DNA of 58,849 bases from Nitrospirota bacterium (GTDB taxonomy: Bacteria; Nitrospirota; Leptospirillia; Leptospirillales; Leptospirillaceae): positions 1-58,849 of the forward strand of contig DAHVAL010000011.1 of assembly GCA_027314645.1 (NCBI GenBank), read 5' to 3'. The notes beneath the pieces were generated by a model. The model was given only the letters and a program-made list of their open reading frames with translations, was not told the origin of the DNA and did not search any database. The translations under genes were made by a program, and so were the position numbers. Positions 26,759-47,256 of the stretch are shown one piece after another. Within the stretch, counting starts at the first letter, position 1; each line of letters begins with the position of its first letter.

Positions 26759-27586
26759 CTAAGGGAGAAGTTTGATCGCTGCTTGAGGAAGCAGGTTAGA
26801 CTGGGCCAACACGGCGGCCCCAGATTGCGACAGAATCTGCCGTTTCGTAAACTTGGCGGTTTCTCCGGCGAAGTCCACGTCCCGGATCTGGGCTCGGGCC
26901 GCCTGCACATTGGTTGTGGCGTTATTTAGATTCCGGATCGTCCATTCCATTCGGTTCTGGACGGCACCGATGTCACCCTGCAGGGCGTTGATCCGGTCCA
27001 AAGCGACATCGAGCCGGTTTACCGCATTCAGGGAGTTGGGGCGACTGAGAATATCGGTTCCGTTGATTCCCATTTCACCGGCGTCCATCTTCCCGATATG
27101 AACATGCAACCGGTCGCTCATTGTCGTGTAGATACCCACATGAAACTTGTATTCCGGATGGCTTCCGTCAAAAAGTTTCATCCCGTTGAAGTCGGTCGTC
27201 TTCGCGATACGGGTAATTTCCGACTTGAGATGCTGGTATTCCTGGTTCAGCACCTTGAGGTCTTTCGGTGAATACGTGCTGTTTGCGGCTTGGATGGCCA
27301 GCTGCCGCATCTTCAGAATAATGGTGTTATCCGTCAGAAGGGCACCGTTCGCCGTTTGAAGAAGACTCGACCCGTCATTCGCATTCCGGATGGCGGCCGC
27401 ATAAGATCTCACCTGACCGCCCATACGCTGGGAAATCGAATACCCGGCGGGATCGTCCGCAGGGGAATTCACGCGGTACCCCGAGGAAAGCCGGTTGACG
27501 TGTTTCGCTAGGGCATTTTGGGTCTGGTTCAGATGGAACTGCGCATTTAGCGACGCAATGTTGTCGTTGATAATCAAACCACTCAT
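26759..27586 (-). CDS. Flagellin 1 (short, D0/D1 only)
   Basis: 275 residues from the ATG at 27586, which has AAGGAGGGAACC upstream; the longer in-frame start at 27649 is in the leader. It contains the conserved N-terminal D0/D1 region (LNQTQNALAKHVNRLSSGYR, NSPADDPAGYSIS) and the C-terminal region ending LSQSGAAVLAQSNLLPQAAIKLL. The central variable D2/D3 domains are essentially absent. It is preceded by a consensus sigma-28 promoter and followed by a strong terminator, so it is probably the main filament protein made late in assembly. It is the immediate neighbour of csrA::fliW, the likely regulator of its translation. Confidence 0.95.
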   Translation of the reverse strand: MSGLIINDNIASLNAQFHLNQTQNALAKHVNRLSSGYRVNSPADDPAGYSISQRMGGQVRSYAAAIRNANDGSSLLQTANGALLTDNTIILKMRQLAIQAANSTYSPKDLKVLNQEYQHLKSEITRIAKTTDFNGMKLFDGSHPEYKFHVGIYTTMSDRLHVHIGKMDAGEMGINGTDILSRPNSLNAVNRLDVALDRINALQGDIGAVQNRMEWTIRNLNNATTNVQAARAQIRDVDFAGETAKFTKRQILSQSGAAVLAQSNLLPQAAIKLLP

Positions 27587-27674
27587 GGTTCCCTCCTTGG
27601 GTTTTCCGGCCTCATCCCTGGCCTTGTCCTTGCTAATCCGGCGATTCAACCGAAGTCACGGTCCTCACCGTTCC
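27587..27674 (-). promoter_or_regulatory. GGA-rich flagellin 1 mRNA leader, candidate CsrA target
   Basis: The leader between the sigma-28 promoter and the flagellin ATG holds eight GGA triplets on the coding strand (plus-strand TCC at 27590, 27594, 27605, 27615, 27627, 27637, 27662 and 27672). Two lie in the Shine-Dalgarno region. One follows a small hairpin, ACGGT-GAGG-ACCGT (about 27656-27670), placing GGA in or beside the loop. CsrA dimers bind GGA in leader hairpins and block ribosome access, as on Bacillus hag mRNA. That CsrA acts here is inference. Confidence 0.55.
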
Positions 27675-27681
27675 AAGGATC

Positions 27682-27708
27682 TTTTCGGCAGGGTGCCGAA
27701 AAACTTTA
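27682..27708 (-). promoter_or_regulatory. Consensus sigma-28 (FliA) promoter for flagellin 1
   Basis: Minus strand: TAAAGTTT (27708-27701), 11-base spacer, GCCGAAAA (27689-27682). The -35 matches the enterobacterial FliA consensus fully and the -10 differs at one base. The TAA of the -35 is also the stop codon of csrA::fliW. The spacer and -10 form a perfect palindrome, TTTTCGGCA-CCC-TGCCGAAAA, which could also act as a stop hairpin for the upstream transcript. Confidence 0.85.
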
Positions 27709-28422
27709 GGAGGTTGCCACCTCTCCCTGCTGCGGGGGAAATACCCGCATGCGGAGCCAGGAGTCCGACTCCGCCAGAACGACCTGTCGTCCCATCCGGT
27801 CCGTTTCCCGGACCAGGAGCGGTCCCTGAAGATTTGCAGTGGCCTCGTCCTTCCCCTTCTTGGGAAAGGTGACGATCGCCATCGCCGAAAGACCTTCGTC
27901 CCCGGGGGTTCCGAAAAATTCCCTGTCCCATTCCGGCAAGACAATCCGGCTCATATAGTCGGGAACGAGGAGAACCGGATCGATGACAACAAAGGCCAGA
28001 GCGGGATCGTCAAGGGACTGGAGCCAATAAAAAACGGTCTCCTCCATCGTCTCCAGCAGCAAGAATCGGCGGGTCTGGGGAAAGCCCAGGAGACCGTCGG
28101 AAAAATGGATCAGTCGAGTGTCATCCACGGGAATCTTCCCAAAACGGGTCGTCTCAAATGTCCCCATCTTCCCTCCCCCGTCCGCGGCCGGACGGAGCCC
28201 ACCCCCGTCAACGCGTCGGGGAGAGATCCCGGTCGCCTTCCTGTTCTCCTCCATGATTCTGGCCAGAACTTCGTCCCGGTGGATGAGTATCCCTTCGGGG
28301 GCCTCGATGCCGAGTCGCACGGAGCCTCCTTTCACCTCCAGGACGACAATTCGGACGGAGGGCCCGATCCGGAGTCCTTCACCGATTTTTCTGGTCAGGA
28401 TAAGAATGGTCGTTCCTCCCAT
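27706..28422 (-). CDS. CsrA-FliW fusion protein: translational regulator and flagellar assembly factor
   Basis: One uninterrupted frame of 238 codons. Residues 6-64 are a complete CsrA (LILTRKIGEGLRIG, VVLEVKGGSVRLGIEAP, and IHRDEV with the RNA-contact Arg). About 20 linker residues follow, then residues 86-238 are a full FliW (ETTRFGKIPVDD, IHFSDGLLGFPQTRRF). Usually these are two adjacent genes: FliW binds flagellin or CsrA, and CsrA represses flagellin translation. The conventional start is the ATG at 28422, which has no Shine-Dalgarno. GGGAGG lies seven bases before an ATT at 28407, where the canonical CsrA Met falls. An internal GGAGGGAAG-ATG at 28167 could give free FliW. The gene follows flgL by 15 bases and precedes flagellin 1. 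Confidence 0.92.
   Translation of the reverse strand: MGGTTILILTRKIGEGLRIGPSVRIVVLEVKGGSVRLGIEAPEGILIHRDEVLARIMEENRKATGISPRRVDGGGLRPAADGGGKMGTFETTRFGKIPVDDTRLIHFSDGLLGFPQTRRFLLLETMEETVFYWLQSLDDPALAFVVIDPVLLVPDYMSRIVLPEWDREFFGTPGDEGLSAMAIVTFPKKGKDEATANLQGPLLVRETDRMGRQVVLAESDSWLRMRVFPPQQGEVATS
28165..28178 (-). promoter_or_regulatory. Internal ribosome binding site and ATG for free FliW
   Basis: Inside csrA::fliW, in frame, GGGGGAGGGAAG directly precedes the ATG at 28167-28165, exactly where an independent FliW would begin (MGTFETTRFG). The spacing of GGAGG to ATG is four bases. It could drive a second, FliW-only product, or be a relic of when the genes were separate. Confidence 0.5.
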
Positions 28423-31585: not shown

Positions 31586-31930
31586 TCAGCTTCCGGAGGC
31601 CCCGCCTCCGTGCTCTTTGCTCCATGCGATGATTTTTCGGGCGACTTCGCTCGACGGAACCGAATAGGTCCCGTTTTTGACCCGTTCTCTCAATTCTGCG
31701 ATCTGCTCTTCACGAACCTCGGGTAACTTGTCGATCTCCTCGCGCAGCCGGGCGACTTGCCTGGCAGGGCCCGAGATTTCCAACACATCGGATTCCACAA
31801 GATGTGTCACCTGGTCGGGAGTTTTTTTGCTTTCACTTCCCGGGCCGGCGACACCCGGCTTCTTTGATAACTGTTCGGGGCGATCTGGTAACCTGCTCGA
31901 TCCCGAGGGTGTTACTTTTGGGTCGTTCAT
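31586..31930 (-). CDS. flgM: Anti-sigma-28 factor FlgM
   Basis: 114 residues. The disordered, polar N-terminus and the C-terminal sigma-binding part (LPEVREEQIAELRERVKNGTYSV split across ~70-95, then SSEVARKIIAW) are characteristic. FlgM holds FliA inactive until the hook is complete and then leaves through the export channel. It is preceded by a sigma-28 promoter (31973-32000), giving the usual feedback in which FliA activates its own inhibitor. Confidence 0.93.
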   Translation of the reverse strand: MNDPKVTPSGSSRLPDRPEQLSKKPGVAGPGSESKKTPDQVTHLVESDVLEISGPARQVARLREEIDKLPEVREEQIAELRERVKNGTYSVPSSEVARKIIAWSKEHGGGASGS

Positions 31931-32037: not shown

Positions 32038-32898
32038 CTACGGAATGAGCTTGACGGCCGCCTGAGGAATCTGGTTTGCCTGGGCCAGGACGGCCGTTCC
32101 CGACTGCTGAAGGATCCGGTCCCGCGTAAACCGGGCCGTTTCTTTCGCAAAATTCGCGTCCTTGATCTGGGATTTTGAGGCCGCGATGTTGACCAAGGCG
32201 GTGTTCAGGTTCCGAATCGTCCAGGTCATTCGCTGCTGGAATGCCCCCAGACTTCCCTGGATTCGGTTTAGCTTATCGAGGGCTCCGTCGATGGCCGAGA
32301 TCGCCGAAAGGGCCATTGTCTCGGTGATGACCGACGTCATTCCGAGGGGGATGATCAAGGTTTTTTCATCATAGAGTCCCAGAATGTCGCTGCTGATGGA
32401 GGGGACGGCAATGGACAGCCGGTTCTCCCCTTCCGTTCCGACATCCACCTGGAATGTCAAACCGTCCTCAAGGCTTCCATCGAGCACCTTTCTTCCATCG
32501 AAGTTCGCGACCTTGGCGATCCGGTTAATTTCGCTCATCAGGTGCTGATACTCGAACTGGAGTGTCGACAGATCGGTGGGACTGTACGTCCCGTTCGCCG
32601 CCTGAATGGCAAGCGAACGCATCTTGATCAAAATTTCGTTGTCGGTCAGAAGCGCTCCGCCGATGGTCTGGATCAGATTGGCGGCGTCGTTGGAGTTTCT
32701 GACGGCCTGCTGGACCGACTTCATATAGGAATTCATGACCTGACCGATCGCGTACCCGGCCGGATCATCCCCCGGTGAATTGACCCGATACCCGGAAGAC
32801 AGCCGGTTGATCGTCTGGCTGAGTCTGTTCTGGGTCTCGTTCAGATTGTATTGGGCTCCGAGAGACGCCGCATTTGTATTGATGACCAATCCACTCAT
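32038..32898 (-). CDS. Flagellin 2 (short, D0/D1 only)
   Basis: 286 residues with GGAGGTGAGTC before the ATG. Conserved ends: AASLGAQYNLNETQNRLSQT, LSSGYRVNSPGDDPAGYAIG, and the C-terminus LQQSGTAVLAQANQIPQAAVKLI. It is clearly paralogous to flagellin 1 but differs in the middle and is slightly longer. It follows flgJ by only 11 bases and I found no sigma-28 promoter of its own. It therefore appears to be transcribed with the rod and ring genes from the flgF sigma-54 promoter, which suggests an earlier or constant minor filament component near the hook. Confidence 0.94.
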   Translation of the reverse strand: MSGLVINTNAASLGAQYNLNETQNRLSQTINRLSSGYRVNSPGDDPAGYAIGQVMNSYMKSVQQAVRNSNDAANLIQTIGGALLTDNEILIKMRSLAIQAANGTYSPTDLSTLQFEYQHLMSEINRIAKVANFDGRKVLDGSLEDGLTFQVDVGTEGENRLSIAVPSISSDILGLYDEKTLIIPLGMTSVITETMALSAISAIDGALDKLNRIQGSLGAFQQRMTWTIRNLNTALVNIAASKSQIKDANFAKETARFTRDRILQQSGTAVLAQANQIPQAAVKLIP

Positions 32899-46524: not shown

Positions 46525-47256
46525 TTAAGAAAATCGGGATTCCTCTCCCATGGTCTTTCCCAGGATGGATTTGATGACCCGGAGCGCCTGCGCATGAATC
46601 TGGGACACCCGGGACTCGCTGACCTCCAGAACCTGAGCGACTTCCTTCATGGTTAAGTCCTCATAGTAATACAGAGTCAGAACCAGTCTCTGCTTTTCCG
46701 GAAGGGTATCGAGCGCCTTGGTGAGGCGCTCCACGGCATCCCCACGGATCAGCTGACCGAGCGGATCCTCCTGGCGTGTTTCGGGAATCCTGTCTTTAAG
46801 AGAGTCGCCTTCCTGCTCGTCGGGCGAAAAAAACTCGTCCAAGGAAAGCGTGGGATGGGTATCAATTTCCCAGAGGAGTTGCGACATCGCGTCTAAAGAA
46901 AGCCCCATCCTTTCTGCCAGCTCCTCTTCGGACGGTTCGCGGCCGAGTTCTTCCTCGAGTCGGGAGCGAACCTGCTGCACTTCCGACTGTTTTTCCCGAA
47001 CCGACCGGGGGACCCAGTCCATGGCGCGGATCTCGTCAAGCATGGCCCCACGGATTCGATGTTCGGCCATGGTCTTGAATTTCAGCCCTCTCGACGGATC
47101 GAAGCGACGGGCACTATCAACAAGGCTCCGGAGGCCCACGCTGATCAGGTCCTCCACCCCTATTTCCGGGGGGAGGCGATGGGCGTAGCGCATCGCATGA
47201 TACTTGATGGTGCCGGCAAACTCCTTGATCATCGCATCGTCAAGTTCCAAGCACAT
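46525..47256 (-). CDS. fliA: Flagellar sigma factor 28 (FliA)
   Basis: About 243 residues. Region 2 (DLISVGLRSLVDSARRFDPSRG and KFKTMAEHRIRGAMLDEIR), region 3 (EELGREPSEEELAERMGLS), and region 4 (LPEKQRLVLTLYYYEDLTMKEVAQVLEVSESRVSQIHAQAL, in pieces) are those of FliA/WhiG. The start is uncertain: ATG at 47256 lies right after GAGGG, a TTG two codons later has better spacing, and a TTG exists at 47277. It has its own sigma-70-type promoter (47361-47389) and a tandem repeat in its leader. It should read the two sigma-28 promoters in this window. Confidence 0.94.
   Translation of the reverse strand: MCLELDDAMIKEFAGTIKYHAMRYAHRLPPEIGVEDLISVGLRSLVDSARRFDPSRGLKFKTMAEHRIRGAMLDEIRAMDWVPRSVREKQSEVQQVRSRLEEELGREPSEEELAERMGLSLDAMSQLLWEIDTHPTLSLDEFFSPDEQEGDSLKDRIPETRQEDPLGQLIRGDAVERLTKALDTLPEKQRLVLTLYYYEDLTMKEVAQVLEVSESRVSQIHAQALRVIKSILGKTMGEESRFS

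Follow-up and report, generated by a model that had tools for sequence, protein, structure and literature searches.

What controls a flagellin gene whose promoter has its first bases in the stop codon of a regulator gene? This question is raised by a 58,849-nucleotide stretch of DNA from the Leptospirillum family (the window), on the minus strand of which all window features described here lie. The gene for flagellin 1 (26759..27586; 275 aa; Pfam Flagellin_N 6.6e-38, Flagellin_C 8.9e-23) follows a csrA-fliW fusion gene, and between them a sigma-28-type promoter, TAAAGTTT-N11-GCCGAAAA (27682..27708), can be read directly. Spelled out over 27708..27682, it runs TAAAGTTT TTCGGCACCCT GCCGAAAA. The -35 element opens on the TAA (27708..27706) that ends the csrA-fliW frame (28422..27706, 238 codons), and the -10 element carries one mismatch relative to a TAAAGTTT-N11-GCCGATAA-type site. 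The pattern TAAAGTTTN{10,13}CCGAWRA has a single exact match in the 2.04-Mb genome, which is this promoter. Moreover, the window encodes a FliA-type sigma-28 factor (46561..47229; TIGR02479, 242.1 bits vs a curated cut-off of 189.6) and the anti-sigma-28 protein FlgM (31586..31930; Pfam PF04316, 7.6e-16). An earlier note on this DNA had placed a sigma-28 promoter on the TAA of csrA-fliW, and both its sequence and its coordinates are correct.

A perfect inverted repeat, TTTTCGGC-ACCCT-GCCGAAAA (27682..27702), overlaps the promoter, and relatives keep little of it beyond GGC/GCC. It was considered as a terminator or operator and rejected, being without a following T run and poorly kept in relatives; the repeat is judged to be a lineage-specific coincidence.

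The ATG of flagellin 1 lies at 27586, separated from the -10 element by 95 bases. This leader region (27587..27681) holds eight GGA triplets, at 27674-72, 27664-62, 27639-37, 27629-27, 27617-15, 27607-05, 27596-94 (within the Shine-Dalgarno) and 27592-90, which bears out the count in the earlier note. If transcription begins about 6 nt past the -10 element, the predicted leader is about 90 nt long and retains all eight, the first barely. The expectation of one or two GGA that accompanied the count agrees with window composition (1.6) but not with the leader's own purine-rich composition, from which 3.4 are expected (P = 0.003 for eight or more), or with a model in which dinucleotides are kept (5.5; P = 0.076). 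Because 3.4 to 5.5 triplets are thus expected, and eight or more occur in 0.9% of 95-base stretches on both strands of the window, the number of GGA by itself is weak evidence. A second flagellin gene (32038..32898) starts directly behind its upstream gene and has neither a GGA leader nor an adjacent sigma-28 promoter, so flagellin 1 alone is under the GGA leader.

Conservation is more informative than number when it extends past the genus. The search for relatives returned 13 more genomes from the genus, of which 12 had a match, and 11 leaders, the window's included, could be aligned. Each of the 11 has the promoter on the stop codon, with stop and ATG 122-124 apart. Among them, four GGA are invariant (27664-62, 27629-27, 27617-15 and 27596-94), including one in the sequence AAGGACA (27627..27629), and the other four vary. 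This invariance is not specific, since the whole leader is well conserved within the genus (86% mean column identity).

The order comprises 21 genomes in one family, and records of some of its other genera are also named Leptospirillum. Seven loci from these relatives (L017, L018, L020-L023 and L047) encode CsrA and FliW as separate proteins, from genes that overlap by ATGA or GTGA. In them, too, the -35 element begins on the fliW stop codon and the order is csrA, fliW, promoter, leader and flagellin; overall, 12 fused loci and 7 unfused ones have the promoter at the same place on the stop codon. Counted from the predicted start, the unfused leaders are longer (about 140-155 nt vs about 90 nt in the fused genus), and most of their sequence also differs. 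Directly before the ATG, however, all seven carry GGUCC-ANGGAU(U/A)-GGACC followed by CCAAGGAGGG, and the equivalent site in the fused genus is GGCC-AGGGAU(G/A)A-GGCC plus CCAAGGAGGG. The complementarity of the stem is kept, with the U-A pair of GGUCC/GGACC missing on both sides in GGCC/GGCC, and CCAAGGAGGG is invariant in 18/18 leaders read. (The genome bin G016 has two csrA-fliW loci, G016:C6 and G016:C40, listed as L047 and L048; downstream of L047 is a flagellin gene whose leader has this element too.)

Two GGA are therefore common to fused and unfused leaders: that in the ANGGAU hairpin loop and that in the Shine-Dalgarno. This comparison across the family provides the strongest evidence that both are functional, and it makes control of this flagellin leader by CsrA very probable. 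Eight CsrA sites would be an overcount, as four GGA are invariant in the genus (n = 11), two across the family, and the rest are absent from some sister species. Furthermore, the earlier proposal that the fusion forms a self-contained feedback module does not hold in that form: because unfused genera, too, have the promoter on the stop codon and the leader element, the module was not created by the fusion, and the layout is most simply read as older than it.

The main predicted CsrA site in the window is the hairpin GGCC-AGGGAUGA-GGCC (27608..27623), the loop GGA of which (27617..27615) has an unpaired probability of 0.97 and a counterpart across the family. Its ANGGAU loop fits the hexaloop class CANGGANG described in PMC4894983. 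The second predicted site lies within the Shine-Dalgarno AAGGAGG (27592..27598), with its GGA at 27596..27594 unpaired at a probability of 0.94. The two predicted sites, one in a hairpin loop and the other downstream in the Shine-Dalgarno, have their GGA 21 nt apart, within the 10-63 nt range that a CsrA dimer can bridge. Predicted folding, which had been proposed as a check, therefore favors exposure of both sites in the window, but folds differ among species and the loop GGA is predicted to be paired in four close relatives (G003, G005, G007 and G010).

Further upstream, hairpin 1 (27658..27671), ACGGU-GAGG-ACCGU, includes the conserved GGA at 27664..27662. Three of its stem pairs have changed on both sides between the two clades of the genus. 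These changes amount to essentially one evolutionary step and offer modest evidence for the putative stem, and the lowest-energy fold predicted for the window's sequence does not contain hairpin 1. RNAalifold run on the whole 125-column alignment paired the promoter with the leader, and that part was dropped because the promoter is untranscribed; a covariation count on alignment A3 was left unused, MAFFT having offset the fused and unfused stems by one column. The structural evidence is accordingly mixed, and the predicted role of the leader is carried by conservation.

The regulator upstream joins a CsrA domain, a linker and a FliW domain in one frame (27706..28422; Pfam CsrA 1.6e-17, FliW 3.6e-29). 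In the genus, csrA and fliW are fused in every member with an uninterrupted contig, and G012, in which the locus is split by contig ends, is presumed to be fused as well. The fusion is the sole CsrA in each fused genome, that of the window included. Numbered from the proposed start codon, residues L4, R44 and N55 of CsrA are invariant in alignment A2; L4 and R44 are RNA-contact residues. N55 is a FliW-contact residue of CsrA (PMC13407953). The FliW domain resembles a solved FliW (PDB 5dmb, 1.4e-18), and an AlphaFold2 model of the fusion (ten rows), with a pLDDT of 39.5, was set aside. CsrA of unfused relatives ends in a conserved tail (TPDQM...). In place of that tail the fusion has a linker of about 22 residues, and contact between FliW and CsrA may therefore differ from that in the relatives.

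Among 217 sampled genomes of the phylum, no second CsrA-FliW fusion was found outside the genus. One apparent further case, G073, was dismissed on checking, and two of the three distant matches L049-L051, namely L049 and L050, have csrA as a gene of its own. In many genomes of families f9 and f10 (G029, G037, G052 and others), csrA and fliW are in-frame and one stop codon apart, a state one step short of fusion. The accessible portion of the open-access literature contained no account of a CsrA-FliW gene fusion or of Leptospirillum CsrA, although the fusion may be noted elsewhere.

Translation of the regulator appears to begin in an unusual way. At the position of CsrA Met1 (in MLILTRK), the codon is ATT in 16/19 loci, ATA in 1/19 and ATG in 2/19 (the window, at 28405..28407, together with L003-L013, L017, L018, L020-L023 and L047). 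A Shine-Dalgarno stands right before this codon, which lies 27-33 nt past the flgL stop where that could be placed. In 18/19 loci, there is no in-frame ATG, GTG, TTG or CTG between the upstream stop and the Met1 codon, and in L018 and L020 a stop codon lies two codons before the Met1 position. The exception is the window itself, with an in-frame ATG at 28422, five codons upstream of the ATT and without a good Shine-Dalgarno; the ATT at 28407..28405 (233 codons) is the more probable start of csrA-fliW than this ATG (238 codons). Ordinary isoleucine codons in the window are chiefly ATC (ATC 183, ATT 71, ATA 8). Of ten csrA genes from other parts of the phylum, nine begin with ATG and one with GTG. 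Conservation and the upstream Shine-Dalgarno thus indicate that csrA appears to start at AUU across the Leptospirillum family. In E. coli, infC is known for its AUU start (PMC4245954), and infC in the window's genome likewise seems to begin at ATT.

The fused gene also retains an internal start codon for FliW, an ATG at 28165..28167 preceded by GGGGGAGGGA (28179..28170), in the same place as the separate fliW start of unfused relatives. This codon is ATG or GTG in 12/12 fused loci, inside a poorly conserved linker, and has a good Shine-Dalgarno in most of them and a weak one in L006. Since the start codon is retained, mostly with a Shine-Dalgarno, free FliW is likely to be produced, and it is probably a second product of the fused gene. 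A further proposal, offered tentatively and with somewhat less than even confidence, is that this two-product gene sets the ratio of repressor to antagonist on the adjoining leader, through an AUU-started CsrA-FliW and an in-frame, internally started FliW, and that the infC-like AUU ties the supply of CsrA to initiation fidelity across the Leptospirillum family.

Together, these observations suggest, with a probability of roughly 0.8, that the leader before flagellin 1 is the control region of a CsrA-FliW-flagellin homeostasis circuit and is repressed by CsrA. The reading is supported by GGA conservation, intact L4, R44 and N55, the presence of FliA and FlgM, and parallels with published flagellin leaders (PMC4894983, PMC7652899). 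From these, we infer transcription start, binding, repression and release by FliW in the following scheme. FliA (sigma-28) would transcribe flagellin 1 from the promoter, whose first bases are also the last of the regulator gene. A CsrA dimer, formed from the CsrA domains of the fusion, would bridge the loop GGA (27617..27615) and the Shine-Dalgarno GGA (27596..27594) and block ribosome binding on the flagellin 1 leader; the leader's additional GGA may strengthen binding or accommodate more dimers. Binding of FliW to CsrA would lift the block, and capture of FliW by unexported flagellin would restore it. The fusion would tie regulator to antagonist, with retained internal initiation adding free FliW. 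The mechanism sketched in the earlier note, direct repression of the abutting flagellin gene by the fusion protein, is probably right in outline.

Other explanations deserve consideration. Conservation of the leader might serve only to keep the mRNA stable and its Shine-Dalgarno strong, with the GGA a reflection of purine richness and CsrA inactive here. An ordinary GGA count given the dinucleotides would fit this explanation, as would the presence of GGA in every Shine-Dalgarno of this type, but neither accounts for an ANGGAU loop hairpin that is kept in place across five genera, unlike the remaining leader, or for the location of csrA and fliW directly upstream in all five; conservation of this kind alone is improbable. 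A CsrA-repressed leader could also, or mainly, serve as a sponge, holding more than one dimer so that flagellin mRNA titrates the fusion off other targets, as in C. jejuni flaA. Titration of CsrA by flaA mRNA is published (PMC4894983), and the four invariant GGA are two beyond the need of one dimer; however, fused and unfused relatives share two sites only, and a sponge is rather unlikely, if less so than a leader without CsrA control.

The remaining alternative concerns the protein. The fusion might be largely locked in a FliW-inhibited state in cis, with repression beginning only once flagellin captures the FliW domain. The antagonist is covalently present on every CsrA chain, whereas B. subtilis is reported to work near one FliW per CsrA dimer (PMC6529632). 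Set against this, the CsrA tail that is conserved in unfused relatives is missing, which may weaken docking in cis. Such a lock seems doubtful, although slightly more plausible than the sponge. Repression by the fusion through two bridged sites, reversed by FliW, remains the preferred reading.

If this reading is correct, the CsrA-FliW-flagellin circuit also operates in the Leptospirillum family. The comparison also points to a genus whose repressor and antagonist reside in a single protein that is its sole CsrA, allowing a clean test of the mode of FliW inhibition, including whether FliW acts in cis or in trans and whether one or two FliW are needed per dimer. Confirmation of AUU as the csrA start would, in addition, provide a rare case of a global regulator with a conserved non-AUG start.

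In B. subtilis, csrA and fliW adjoin the flagellin gene and a sigma-28-type promoter. The hag mRNA of that organism has two CsrA sites, one of them on the Shine-Dalgarno, and FliW is the antagonist (PMC7652899). The window's locus resembles this CsrA, FliW and Hag system in its two sites, here predicted, one on the Shine-Dalgarno, and in the adjoining position of csrA and fliW; unlike it, the locus has one fused gene in place of separate csrA and fliW, and would supply two FliW domains per CsrA dimer vs about 1:1. In C. jejuni, flaA has a 45-nt leader with two ANGGA-type sites, in a hairpin loop and at the ribosome-binding site, 21 nt apart, and is transcribed by sigma-28 with FliW as antagonist and with csrA and fliW not adjacent (PMC4894983). 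The predicted loop and ribosome-binding-site sites of the window share this arrangement and the 21-nt spacing, whereas the predicted leader is about 90 nt long and the regulators are adjacent and fused. Closest are the unfused loci of the Leptospirillum family, which share the promoter on the stop codon, the ANGGAU hairpin, CCAAGGAGGG and the AUU-type csrA start, and which differ in their longer leader and separate, overlapping csrA and fliW. The flagellin brake proposed here is of a type known from other bacteria, and its new part is the fused regulator.
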